64,000 bases of DNA from Deltaproteobacteria bacterium. GTDB lineage: Bacteria; Bdellovibrionota_B; Oligoflexia; Oligoflexales; Bog-1112. The stretch lies in assembly GCA_016186945.1 (NCBI GenBank), contig JACPKR010000033.1, positions 1 through 64,000 on the forward strand. Direction: 5' to 3'. The translations under genes were made by a program, and so were the position numbers. Of the stretch, positions 8,201-36,466 are shown in pieces; positions within the stretch are counted from its first letter, which is position 1, and every line of letters starts with the position of its first letter. The notes beneath the pieces were generated by a model that saw nothing but the letters and a program-made list of their open reading frames with translations, made no database searches and was not told where the DNA came from.

Positions 8201-11200
8201 GGTAATGGAACGTGTCAGATCTCCCTTGGTTACAGCGGTTGAAACCTCGGCAATAGCACGTACTTGGGTTGTAAGATTGCTCGCTAATTGATTTACGTTC
8301 ATAGTTAGATCGCGCCATAGACCCGAAGCTCCTGGAACATTTGCCTGACCACCTAACTTGCCTTCGATGCCGACTTCACGAGCTACGGACGTTACCTGAT
8401 CGCCAAAAACTGCGAGAGTATCTATCATGCTATTGATAGTTTCTGCGAGTTCAGCTATTTCACCCTTTGCCTCAAGGACAAGCTTGCGTTTAAGTTCTCC
8501 GTTGGCTACTGAGGTGACAACCTTGGCAATACCTCGTACCTGTGTTGTCAAATTAGATGCCATTGAATTTACGTTATCGGTAAGGTCTTTCCAGGTTCCC
8601 CCCACTCCTTTGACGGAGGCCTGACCTCCAAGCTTCCCATCGGTCCCGACTTCGCGTGCCACACGCGTAACTTCGGAAGCAAATGCGTTCAACTGATCGA
8701 CCATGGTATTGATGGTAATTTTAAGCTGAAGAATTTCCCCTTTAACATCGACCGTAATCTTCTTGGAAAGATCCCCGTTGGCGACTGCCGTCGTTACTTC
8801 CGCAATATTTCTAACCTGACCTGTAAGGTTATTTGCCATGTTATTCACGTTTTCTGTCAGATCCTTCCAAGTTCCCCCTACGCCTTTTACGAAAGCCTGA
8901 CCTCCCAGGCGCCCCTCAGTCCCCACTTCCCTAGCGACTCGGGTAACCTCGCCGGCGAAAGCGTTAAGCTGGTTGACCATCGTGTTCATGGTATTTTTTA
9001 ACTCCAGGACCTCACCCTTTACGTCTGCGGTGATAGTTTTAGAAAGATCACCGTTAGCAATCGCTGTAGCAACTTCTGCAATATTTCGCACCTGGTCAGT
9101 GAGGTTACTTGCCATATTGTTCACACTATCGGTTAGGTCTTTCCAAGTACCGGCCACGCCTCTGACGATCGCTTGACCTCCGAGCTTTCCTTCGGTTCCG
9201 ACTTCTTTCGCTACGCGCGTTACCTCACCCGCAAAGGTGTTGAGCTGGTCCACCATCGTGTTGATCGTATTCTTAAGTTGAAGGATCTCACCCTTGACGG
9301 CTACGGTAATTTTCTTACTCAAATCTCCATTCGCTACGGCAGTGGTAACTTCCGCAATATTTCGAACCTGGGAGGTAAGGTTTGTCGCCATGAGGTTCAC
9401 ATTGTCCGTCAAGTCTTTCCAAGTTCCCGCTACCCCAATCACAGATGCCTGTCCTCCGAGTTTACCTTCCGTCCCCACTTCTCTCGCTACCCTGGTAACC
9501 TCCCCAGCAAAGGAATTGAGCTGGTCCACCATCGTGTTGATCGTAGTTTTTAGATCCTGAATTTCACCTTTTACATCGACGGTGATCTTCTTACCAAGAT
9601 CTCCATTGGCTACCGCTGTTGTAACCTCTGCAATATTTCTCACCTGGCTCGTAAGATTCGATGCCATAAGGTTCACATTGTCTGTCAAGTCTTTCCAGGT
9701 TCCTGCGACGCCTCTGACAACAGCTTGACCTCCAAGCTTACCCTCCGTACCTACCTCCTTTGCTACCCTGGTAACCTCTCCAGCAAAGGAATTAAGTTGG
9801 TCCACCATCGTGTTTATAGTATTTTTAAGATCTAGAATTTCACCCCTTACGTCTACAGTGATCTTACGCATCAAATTTCCGCCTGCGATGGCAGTCGCAA
9901 CTTCCGCAATATTTCGTACCTGAGCAGTAAGATTATTGGCCATAAGATTGACACTATCCGTAAGGTCTTTCCAGGTTCCACCTGCGCCACGAACAACAGC
10001 TTGGCCTCCGAGTTTGCCTTCTGTCCCTACTTCCCGAGCGACCCTTGTCACCTCTACGGCGAACGAACCAAGCTGCTCAACCATGGTGTTGATCGTGTTT
10101 TTCAATTCAAGAATCTCTCCCCGAACGTCGACGGTAATTTTCTTGCTGAGATCGCCGTTGGCTACCGCTGTAGTAACCTCTGCTATATTTCGCACCTGGC
10201 TTGTCAAGTTTGAAGCCATCGAGTTCACACCATCTGTCAGATCTTTCCACGTCCCCCCTACGCCCTTTACCTGCGCTTGCCCACCAAGTTTTCCTTCCGT
10301 CCCTACCTCGCGAGCAACACGCGTAACCTCAGAAGCAAAGCCATTCAGTTGGTCGACCATGGTGTTGATGGTGTCTTTAAGCTCCAGTATCTCTCCTTGC
10401 ACATCCACTGTAATTTTCTTCGATAGATCGCCATTTGCAACAGCAGTGGTCACTTGAGCGATATTGCGCACCTGAGCCGTAAGGTTATTTGCCATAAGAT
10501 TTACACTGTCTGTGAGATCTTTCCACGTTCCTGCTACGCCCTTCACTTCAGCCTGCCCACCAAGCTGCCCTTCCGTCCCGACCTCGCGAGCAACACGCGT
10601 AACCTCAGAAGCAAAGGAACTCAATTGGTCCACCATGGTATTAATGGTTTTCTTCAACTCTAGAATTTCTCCTTGCACATCCACCGTAATCTTCTTCGAT
10701 AAATCCCCGTTTGCGACGGCGGTCGTTACTTCCGCAATATTTCGTACCTGCAAAGTGAGGTTGCTTCCCATAAGATTCACGTTGTCAGTAAGATCCTTCC
10801 AGACACCTGCAATACCTTTCACATTCGCCTGCCCACCTAGTTTACCCTCCGTCCCTACTTCTCGAGCAACACGTGTAACTTCTTCCGCAAAGGACCCTAA
10901 TTGAGACACCATGGTATTGATGGTCTTCTTCAACTCTAGAATTTCTCCTCGAACTTCCACGGTGATAGTCTTGCTTAAATCTCCGTTAGCAACAGATGTT
11001 GTTACTTCTGCAATATTTCTCACCTGCAAGGTGAGGTTGGAGGCCATCGAATTCACACTATCGGTGAGGTCTTTCCACGTTCCTGCTACTCCCTTCACTT
11101 CAGCCTGCCCACCAAGTTGCCCTTCTGTACCTACTTCCCTTGCAACACGAGTCACCTCCGACGCAAACGATCCTAACTGATCCACCATGGTATTGATGGT

Positions 11201-12739
11201 CTTCTTCAGCTCGAAAATCTCCCCCCGAACATCGACGGTGATCTTCTTACCAAGATCGCCGTTTGCTACAGCAGTCGTTACTTCTGCTATGTTTCTAACT
11301 TGAGCCGTAAGGTTTGATGCCATAAGATTCACGTTGTCAGTAAGATCCTTCCAAACCCCCGCAACATCTTTTACGGTTGCTTGCCCCCCCAATTTCCCCT
11401 CAGTGCCGACTTCTTTCGCTACGCGCGTTACCTCCGATGCAAAGGAACCTAACTGGTCGACCATGATGTTTATGGTATTCTTAAGCTCGAAAATCTCCCC
11501 TTTAACATCGACTGTAATTTTTTTAGAAAGATCACCGTTAGCTACTGCCGTCGTAACGTCTGCTATATTGCGAACCTGTGCCGTAAGATTGTTGGCCATG
11601 GAATTGACATTATCCGTCAAATCCTTCCAGGTTCCAGCAATCCCCGGAACCTCCGCTTGACCACCAAGTTTTCCTTCCGTCCCGACCTCACGAGCTACTC
11701 GTGTTACCTCCGACGAGAAAGAGCGTAATTGATCGACCATCGTATTTATCGTGTTCTTAAGCTCAAGAATTTCACCTCGCACATCGACCGTAATCTTCTT
11801 ACCGAGATCCCCGTTAGCCACGGCGGTTGTTACATCGGCGATATTACGTACTTGCGACGTAAGATTAGAGGCCATCGAATTAACACTGTCTGTTAAATCC
11901 TTCCACGTCCCACCCACACCCTGAACCACCGCTTGACCACCAAGTTTTCCTTCTGTTCCTACTTCCCGAGCAACCCTTGTCACCTCCGAAGCGAAAGCTC
12001 TCAGTTGGTCAACCATCGTATTGATCGTATCTTTGAGTTGTAAAATCTCACCCCGGACATCGACAGTGATTTTCTTAGAAAGATCTCCGTTTGCAACCGC
12101 AGTTGTAACTTCTGCTATGTTGCGTACTTGGTCGGTCAAATTTGTCGCCATCGAATTCACGTTTTCCGTCAGATTCTGCCAAGTTCCGCTCAGACCCTTA
12201 ACAACAGCCTGGCCACCGAGTTTGCCTTCCATCCCTACTTCTCGTGCAACACGATTCACCTCAGAGGCAAACGTCGAAAGCTGCTCGATCATACCGTTGA
12301 CAACCGTAGCAGTTCTCAAAAACTCACCATGAAGCGCACGACCCTCAATTTCTATCGTCATGGACTGAGAGAGATCCCCTTTCGCAACGGCTCCGATAAC
12401 TCTTGCTGTTTCGAGAGTGGGCTGGACGAGGTCAGCTATAAGAGTATTGACCGATTTCACCAAGGTTCCCCAGCCCCCAGCCGCGTTGGAGATCGTCACG
12501 CGTTCCGAAAGCTGTCCTTCCCGTCCTACCGCATTACCGACGCGCTCATATTCTTTGACTATGCGTTGCTTGTTTTCAATAAGTTCATTGAGAGTATCCG
12601 CAATCTTACCGGCTATCCCCGTTCGGTCGATTGGCATACGTACCGAAAAATTCCCTTTTTTAACTTCCATCAAGACATTAAGGAGTTGAATCGCATCGAG
12701 TTCGTTGTTGTCCGGAACTATTGTAGACTCTTCTTTCAT
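5273..12739 (-). CDS. giant HAMP-array hybrid histidine kinase
   Basis: A 2488-residue protein. The ATG at 12739 is preceded by GGGGGG; the open frame extends 28 codons upstream only because it reads through a dispersed repeat. Order: divergent HAMP-like units (1-166), fifteen tandem 92-residue units each starting near [11 protein letters not shown] (167 to about 1540), GAF (about 1565-1700), coiled coil (1705-1800), HisKA with His1815 ([10 protein letters not shown]), HATPase_c (about 1915-2045, GTGLGLSIS), then three receiver domains (about 2098-2215, 2222-2340, 2368-2488). No transmembrane helix or periplasmic sensor is seen, so it is probably soluble and senses through GAF or HAMP conformations. 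The architecture resembles bacterial relatives of fungal group III kinases, but with an unusually long array. It heads the operon with cheR and cheB. Confidence 0.92.
8102..12241 (-). repeat. 15 x 276-bp in-frame tandem repeat (HAMP pairs)
   Basis: DNA region encoding the fifteen 92-residue HAMP units of the giant kinase. The middle units are nearly identical in protein ([38 protein letters not shown]) but differ more at the DNA level, mainly at third positions. The first and the last two units are the most divergent. Confidence 0.9.
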
Positions 12740-34092: not shown

Positions 34093-34286
34093 AATCTTTC
34101 TCCTTCATGATGACTGAAACGGTCCTGCTATCGTAGCAAATCAAATTCTGCTGCCCACTTAGTTTGTCAATTTTTTCTATGGCGAGATTTTTAGCGGTTT
34201 GCTAGTTGTCAGTCATCCTTGCTGTCTTTCTTGGACACTTTGTGGGAAAATTCACTTTTGAAATAATGACTTCCGCAGGAGGCACC

Positions 34287-34772
34287 ATGCGTTCCACAAA
34301 AAATGATTTGTCCCCAAAAATTCGCAAGCCCGTAGTCAAGCTTCTCAATGCAAATTTGGCGGACGCCATTCATCTGTCTTTGCAGGCCAAGCAGGCCCAT
34401 TGGAATGTGAAAGGTCAGCATTTCTTTTTCCTTCATGGTTTGTTCGACAAGGTTTATGAAGAGTCAGTCGAGTGGGTTGATGCCCTCGCTGAGCGTGCGG
34501 TTCAACTGGGAGGTGTGGCTGAGGGCACGCTGGATAGCATTCAAAAAAGAACCAGGCTAGCCGCTTACGATCTGGAATGGACGAGCGGCAAGGAACACCT
34601 GGAAGGATTATCCAATGGCCTTTCTGTATTCGGGAAGGAAGTACGTGAGGCCATAGGAAGTGCTGTTGAACTTGGCGATGCCGATACTGCGGATTTATTC
34701 ACCGAAATTTCGCGTGAAGTCGATAAAATGTTATGGTTCTGCGAATCTCACTTGGGGGAAGTTAAAACGTAA
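34287..34772 (+). CDS. dps: Dps ferritin-like DNA-protection protein
   Basis: 161 residues from the ATG at 34287, which has GCAGGAGG at 34275-34282; the open frame upstream is longer than the family allows. Ferroxidase-site residues are visible in LQAKQAHWNVKG, then FLHGLFDKVYEESVEWVDALAERAVQLGG. Dps dodecamers oxidise and store iron and coat DNA in stress. Its 3' part (34656-34742) is duplicated within the repeat A copy that follows. The stop lies 4 bp before that repeat. Confidence 0.93.
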   Translation: MRSTKNDLSPKIRKPVVKLLNANLADAIHLSLQAKQAHWNVKGQHFFFLHGLFDKVYEESVEWVDALAERAVQLGGVAEGTLDSIQKRTRLAAYDLEWTSGKEHLEGLSNGLSVFGKEVREAIGSAVELGDADTADLFTEISREVDKMLWFCESHLGEVKT

Positions 34773-34776
34773 AGAA

Positions 34777-35013
34777 GCGTAAGCCACTTGTGGCAAGGAG
34801 GTGGTTTGGAGGAAGTGCTGTTGAACTCGGCGATGCCGATACTGCGGATTTGTTCACCGAAATTTCGCGTGAAGTCGATAAAATGTTATGGTTCTGCTTG
34901 TGGCAAGGAGGTGGTTTGGAGGAAACTGCGCAGCTGGTTCCTCCAAGAATATTCATTGGGGGAGCGACGCTTCACCTGCCCCCGGCTCCCTTCTTGCCAC
35001 GAGTGGCTTACGC
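34777..35013 (+). repeat. dispersed repeat A, copy 3 (compound, carrying a dps fragment)
   Basis: About 237 bp bounded by terminal inverted repeats GCGTAAGCCACTTGTGGCAA and its near complement (right end TTGCCACGAGTGGCTTACGC). The element's GGCAAGGAGGTGGTTTGGAG arm occurs twice, separated by 87 bp copied from dps. The rest (dyad, G-rich segment) matches other copies. It separates dps from trmD. Confidence 0.88.
34811..34897 (+). pseudogene. 87-bp dps 3' fragment inside repeat A
   Basis: Matches 34656-34742 of dps over 87 bp with two differences, CTT/CTC and TTA/TTG, both silent Leu third-position changes. It lacks start and stop. Flanking repeat A arms on both sides show it arose by duplication involving the repeat. 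Confidence 0.92.
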
Positions 35014-35020
35014 TTTATAC

Positions 35021-35698
35021 CTAAAGCAAGTCGGGTCTTTTCTTCTTCGTCTGGGCGAGAGATTCTCGCTTCTTCCATTCCTCTATTTTCCGATGGTCCC
35101 CCGATCGCAGAACGTCGGGAACGCTCAAGCCTTCAAAGACTTCCGGCTTTGTATAAAGAGGATGTTCCAAGAGGCCTGCCATAGCGGGTGTGAAAGAATC
35201 AAGCTCCGGGCTTCTCTGATCCCCCAAGACACCGGGACTCAAACGAAGGATGGAGTCGAGGATCGCCAGGGCTGCGAGTTCCCCCCCAGACATGACGAAG
35301 TCTCCAAGGGAAATTTCCTCATCCACATAGTGAGAAATCAAGCGCTCGTCGACACCGCCAAACCTTCCGCAAATCAGCGCGATTGGCCTTGCTAATGCCT
35401 GAAGTCGCCGAGCGTCGTTTTGCTTCCAAACTTTCCCCTGCGGGCTAGTGAGAATCACATAAGGTCGCTCCGGCAGGCTTTTGATGGCTGCAGCAAGGGG
35501 TTCTGGGCGCATAACCATCCCATCTCCCCCTCCAAAGGGGCGACTGTCCACAGTTCCGTGGCGATCAACAGCGAAGTCTCGAAGATTCATCGGAGTGATA
35601 CGGGCGACTTTTTTGTCGATAGCTGACTTTAATGTGCCAAAGTTCAGATAGGCTTCGATGAAGGAAGGGTGGATGGTGATGATGTAGAACTCTCTCAT
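35021..35698 (-). CDS. trmD: tRNA (guanine-37 N1)-methyltransferase
   Basis: A 225-residue SPOUT-class enzyme that methylates G37 of tRNAs reading CNN codons, preventing frameshifts. Landmarks: DFAVDRHGTVDSRPFGGGDGMVMRPEP near residue 45, the SAM knot segments ILTSPQGKVW, ICGRFGGVDERLI and ISLGDFVMSGGELAAL. It overlaps rimM by 1 bp. rplS, the usual next gene, is absent; repeat A and dps lie there instead. Confidence 0.95.
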   Translation of the reverse strand: MREFYIITIHPSFIEAYLNFGTLKSAIDKKVARITPMNLRDFAVDRHGTVDSRPFGGGDGMVMRPEPLAAAIKSLPERPYVILTSPQGKVWKQNDARRLQALARPIALICGRFGGVDERLISHYVDEEISLGDFVMSGGELAALAILDSILRLSPGVLGDQRSPELDSFTPAMAGLLEHPLYTKPEVFEGLSVPDVLRSGDHRKIEEWKKRESLAQTKKKRPDLL

Positions 35699-36227: not shown

Positions 36228-36466
36228 CGGTCATGCCGCGGGATGACAAATATGGATGCCGCGGGATGACAAATATGGATGCCGCGGGATGACAAATATG
36301 AATGCCGCGGGATGACAAATATGAATGCCGCGGGATGACAAATATGAATGCCGCGGGATGACAAATATGAATGCCGCGGGATGACAAATATGAATGCCGC
36401 GGGATGACGGATGACAAATATGGATGCCGCGGGATGACAAATATGAATGCCGCGGGATGACAAAGG
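36228..36466. repeat. tandem array of ten 23-bp units
   Basis: The unit is GCCGCGGGATGACAAATATG plus AAT or GAT, ten copies head to tail, with one interrupted unit near 36407 that repeats GGATGAC. At 36223-36246 the end of the array forms a hairpin (ATCCCGCGG facing CCGCGGGAT). There are no spacers between units. It lies in the rpsP-rimM gap, 8 bp from the rpsP stop codon, so it would be transcribed in the ribosomal operon. Confidence 0.92.

Follow-up and report, generated by a model that had tools for sequence, protein, structure and literature searches.

A piece of the dps gene, 83–88 bases long, was found a second time inside a hairpin-forming repeat (repeat A) that lies beside dps in the window, i.e., the whole 64,000-nucleotide stretch of DNA analyzed here. 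This copy probably originated as a local duplication across the edge of the element, provoked by the hairpin through template switching, and events of this kind probably recur at other repeat A copies. The first-pass annotation had described the piece as captured by the element; host sequence does lie inside the repeat, but its origin in the adjacent flank, the crossing of the element edge by the event, and the presence of the piece at this locus only speak against capture. Host sequence enters repeat A copies locally, and nothing indicates that it is carried away.

ORF and profile searches showed dps to be intact up to its stop codon. The gene and the parts of the neighboring element are arranged as follows:

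34206..34772, + strand: dps gene (ferritin-like), donor of the copied piece (ORF; PF00210 Ferritin, E 2.9e-26)
34655..34742, + strand: source stretch within dps, 88 bp, of which AGGAA (34655–34659) is common to the element arm
34775..34814, + strand: left end of repeat A plus left arm, first copy (inverted end GCGTAAGCCACTTGTGGCAAGG followed by GGAGGAA, the 5′ hairpin strand)
34787..34814, + strand: first copy of the duplicated 28-bp arm, with the departure point after GGAGGAA
34815..34897, + strand: inserted copy of dps 34660–34742, 83 bp, with two silent differences
34897..34924, + strand: 28-bp arm, copy 2, running on into the intact hairpin
34915..34947, + strand: hairpin core TTTGGAGGAAACTGCGCAGCTGGTTCCTCCAAG, folding stably as DNA (−10.9 kcal/mol, z −4.27)
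34948..35015, + strand: right half of repeat A with the right inverted end (GTGGCTTACGCTT)

The two copies of the dps stretch (34655–34742 and 34810–34897) form a direct repeat of 88 nt with a spacing of 155, identical at 86 of 88 positions (98%), which confirms the 87-bp dps copy reported earlier for the third copy of repeat A. The piece is indeed sandwiched between two arms of the repeat itself, both 28 nt in length and 100% identical (34787–34814 and 34897–34924). Compared with its own upstream flank, the dps-derived spacer scored 78; among the flanks of 186 other elements, none scored above 12, the best value. A chance match is thus excluded. Among plasmid records, the only match was a dps gene of Stanieria. 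The outer inverted repeat of the element (34775–34801 and 34989–35015) was 93% complementary; no clear target duplication was visible by eye at this repeat A copy. ORFs crossing the dps copy (34790–35395) overlap trmD on the opposite strand and are taken as chance frames.

At the first junction, AGGAA (5 bp) is common to the arm and to dps, the arm going on with GGAAA, while at the second junction a single base, C, is common to dps and the arm. The first arm ends after GGAGGAA, where the loop of the hairpin would begin, and is followed by dps from 34660. After 83 dps bases, the sequence resumes at arm base 34787; thus, 44 bases were skipped, which comprise the end of dps, the intervening gap, and the tip of the element. 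Of the short shared bases suggested in the first-pass annotation, those at junction 1 are present, albeit as AGGAA and not GGAAG, but TTCTGC/TTG at junction 2 is not a microhomology, since just the one C is shared there.

These sequences and the two junctions are read directly from the DNA, as are the recurrence at other copies and the clustering at the hairpin described below. From the junctions, we infer that replication was probably the process and that a single event with two switches would have taken place, in the direction of synthesis given here. A MITE of ~130 bp would already have been inserted just downstream of dps. During one later round of DNA synthesis through this MITE, extension of the growing strand may have halted at the hairpin once ...GGAGGAA had been made, and the strand may then have paired anew with the AGGAA in dps, 155 bp upstream; having copied 83 bases of dps, the re-paired strand would have jumped forward to the arm at the one shared C, skipping 44 bases, and completed the element. 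The product would have the order arm, dps piece, arm, hairpin. The evidence supports the earlier proposal of host-sequence duplication through template switching at short stretches of shared bases, and other copies likewise hold pieces of their own flank between doubled arms.

The two differences between the dps copies, 34673 T/C (CTT/CTC) and 34697 A/G (TTA/TTG), are both silent changes in Leu codons, as originally noted. For two changes placed at random in the 83 bases, the probability that both are silent is 0.04, or 0.11 if only transitions are considered. These values lean towards the suggested origin of the changes in functional dps, but the argument is weak. In the only genome of the same genus that was compared, dps had 61% amino acid identity and the contig ended before the copied region; dps of the named relatives had amino acid identities of no more than 46%.

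Repeat A is a genuine MITE. Its census was based on 1.17 Mb of stretches, representing 44% of the 2.66-Mb genome, together with whole-genome patterns; the core GGAGGAAACTGCGCAGCTGGTTCCTCC had 160 exact occurrences in the 1.17 Mb. Full copies, mostly 134–137 bp between GCGTAAGCC ends, bear terminal inverted repeats GTAATGCGTAAGCCAC...GTGGCTTACGCATTAC, and in 14 of 28 full copies the two flanks agree in at least 8 of 9 positions (0.1% at random places). Inverted ends together with target duplications of 8–9 bp are the hallmark of MITEs that a transposase has mobilized; no convincing ORF was found within repeat A itself, and these features bear out the initial designation “MITE-like”. No mover or autonomous partner was found in the 44% of the genome sampled, where pairs of inverted ends 0.3–4 kb apart had no matching target duplications and the longest frames, judged by their beginnings, contained no obvious transposase. 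No match was found in Rfam. Y1 transposases were rejected as movers of repeat A because the PF01797 matches of the genome show no association with it: two had no core in their flanks and two had a core more than 1 kb away, as would be expected from the density of cores. A shortened hairpin core with the same loop, CTGCGCAGCTGG, was observed in two other genera of the family (L050–L057, loci of G005 and G007), its stem carrying compensating changes on both sides (TTGGGGAA/TTCCCCAA). A narrow search with one exact pattern revealed no doubled arms in the two related genomes whose core is similar.

In a scan of the 1.17 Mb that was not seeded on the arm, 42 local direct repeats were detected in the neighborhood of 197 hairpin cores. 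Of these repeats, 23 end at the hairpin (consensus positions 10–39), 21 of them at positions 10–29. When the search was seeded on the arm, 34 arms had a second arm within 200 bp, and 27 of the 34 doubled arms break at positions 15–29, i.e., within the 5′ hairpin strand and the beginning of the loop, a range towards which this seeding biases the search; 151 of 204 other copies reach the end of the core. According to the first-pass annotation, its reading would lose support if no other copy carried host sequence; in five further, independent copies, the doubled arms were found to enclose a piece of the element’s own upstream flank:

L123 (C15): flank piece TTAGCGCTCTTTTG; CTGCG shared, 7 bases skipped
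L132 (C56): flank piece CAAGATCGCGCT
C6:5717: flank piece CAAATGTATG
C68:9600: flank piece AGATTGCC
C75:51283: flank piece TTATGG

Against the flanks of other elements, these matches had p values of 0.005–0.011 each, uncorrected, with ~30 spacers tested. The copy at L123 has the two-jump form seen in dps: five bases are shared at junction 1, flank is copied, and the skip of 7 bases lies at junction 2. The dps piece was the longest found among the flank-derived pieces.

Many doubled-arm spacers do not match their own flank. The spacers at C32:64721 and C52:21120 derive from the element’s own end; several non-flank spacers, starting with the element’s own end, look like nested insertions, and some GGAGGAAAC|GTAATGCG cases (C52:51247, C6:25773) look like a second element inserted in an older core. 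Cores at sample coordinates C52:51247, C6:25773, and C6:53354 are interrupted at one point, between GGAGGAA and ACGTAATGCG, by an apparent whole second element in either orientation, and this point is possibly a preferred target. A further repeat copy, L125 (G000:C20:62917), is broken by a run of ~30 C. Spacers unlike their own flank count against the proposed mechanism, as do the single-base second junction and the negative outcome of the narrow search for doubled arms in the two related genomes. In addition, the dps copy (83 bp) is far longer than the other flank pieces (~8–19 bp), so a different process may have produced it.

Two events instead of one could also account for the locus. If an ordinary 155-bp tandem duplication (34660–34814) delimited by AGGAA had been followed by loss of 44 bp from the second copy, precisely the sequence seen today would result, with a 5-bp and a 1-bp junction; at L132 and C68:9600, arm and flank together are duplicated in pure tandem form. 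We consider this course plausible but the less probable one; two steps are required, and a comparable skip is independently present at junction 2 of L123, which favors one event with two switches. The two-event course differs from the main explanation only in the number of events, and the hairpin may have provoked the first of them. That the structure is an assembly artefact at a repeat is highly improbable. The source genome is indeed a draft assembly of 76 contigs, assemblers fail at repeats of this kind, and a similar element (C59) has N gaps. However, the two dps copies, differing at two bases, are not one stretch joined twice, and the structure is found again at independent sites whose flanks differ.

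Capture driven by the element, with the transposition machinery taking up neighboring gene sequence and perhaps carrying it to new sites, would be compatible with the position of the dps piece inside the outer inverted repeats, with which it could in principle move; MITEs of the repeat A family clearly have moved, as seen from their target duplications, and TIMEs are known to mobilize DNA between two of their copies (PMC4133298). We nevertheless regard capture as very unlikely. The dps piece was found nowhere else in the genome assembly and thus gives no sign of mobilization; every matched piece originates in the element’s own flank, and whole-genome patterns with spacers of up to ~150 bases revealed no other copy with a gene-sized interior or a gene piece of comparable length. 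Host fragments moved to other loci, which characterize gene-capturing elements (Pack-type, TIME-like), were not found.

The most likely process, template switching during replication provoked by the hairpin, is ordinary in kind, yet the locus provides a clean and recurrent natural example. The flank pieces within this one genome range in length from a few bases to 83 and form a natural series of events; a single defined hairpin apparently provokes the duplications, so that the rules governing breakpoints and shared bases could be measured. Host sequence within a small repeat need not imply capture by transposition. It is conceivable, though rather unlikely, that the hairpin acts as a systematic generator of local duplications, seeding new sequence beside genes, and that MITEs lengthen into mosaics by copying host flank inward, which later transposition could spread. 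Two other repeats were observed in the window: a 23-bp tandem array (ATGCCGCGGGATGACAAATATGA, ~10 copies) at 36233–36464, among frames resembling trmD, rimM, and rpsP, and a long array of 10–11 units of ~276 bp, ~72% alike, at 8575–12271, probably representing a repeat protein gene.

Repeat A resembles REP palindromes and IS200-like (Y1) systems in being a short, abundant palindromic hairpin; unlike REP, full-length repeat A ends in inverted repeats and shows 8–9 bp target duplications, and no core was found near Y1 genes beyond the background, in contrast to REP/RAYT systems, where the palindrome flanks a Y1 transposase. TIMEs, which are Tn3-derived miniature elements with 5- or 6-bp target duplications and 38-bp ends, mobilize DNA segments as composites (PMC4133298). 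Repeat A shares with them the miniature size, the inverted ends, and the association with extra host DNA, but differs in its 8–9 bp target duplications and in the nature of the extra DNA, which is an internal local duplication. With bacterial MITEs, it has in common the short length, non-coding sequence, inverted ends, target duplications of fixed length, and many copies, whereas its frequent partial arm duplications are centered on an internal hairpin. In classic quasipalindrome events, one inverted-repeat arm is copied onto its partner across short stretches, while in repeat A the strand would switch to a direct position upstream and the flank is duplicated. In E. coli, the imperfect inverted repeat of a quasipalindrome is a hot spot for template switching of the growing strand at a hairpin (e.g., PMC7202029), and it is this switch at a hairpin that repeat A appears to share.
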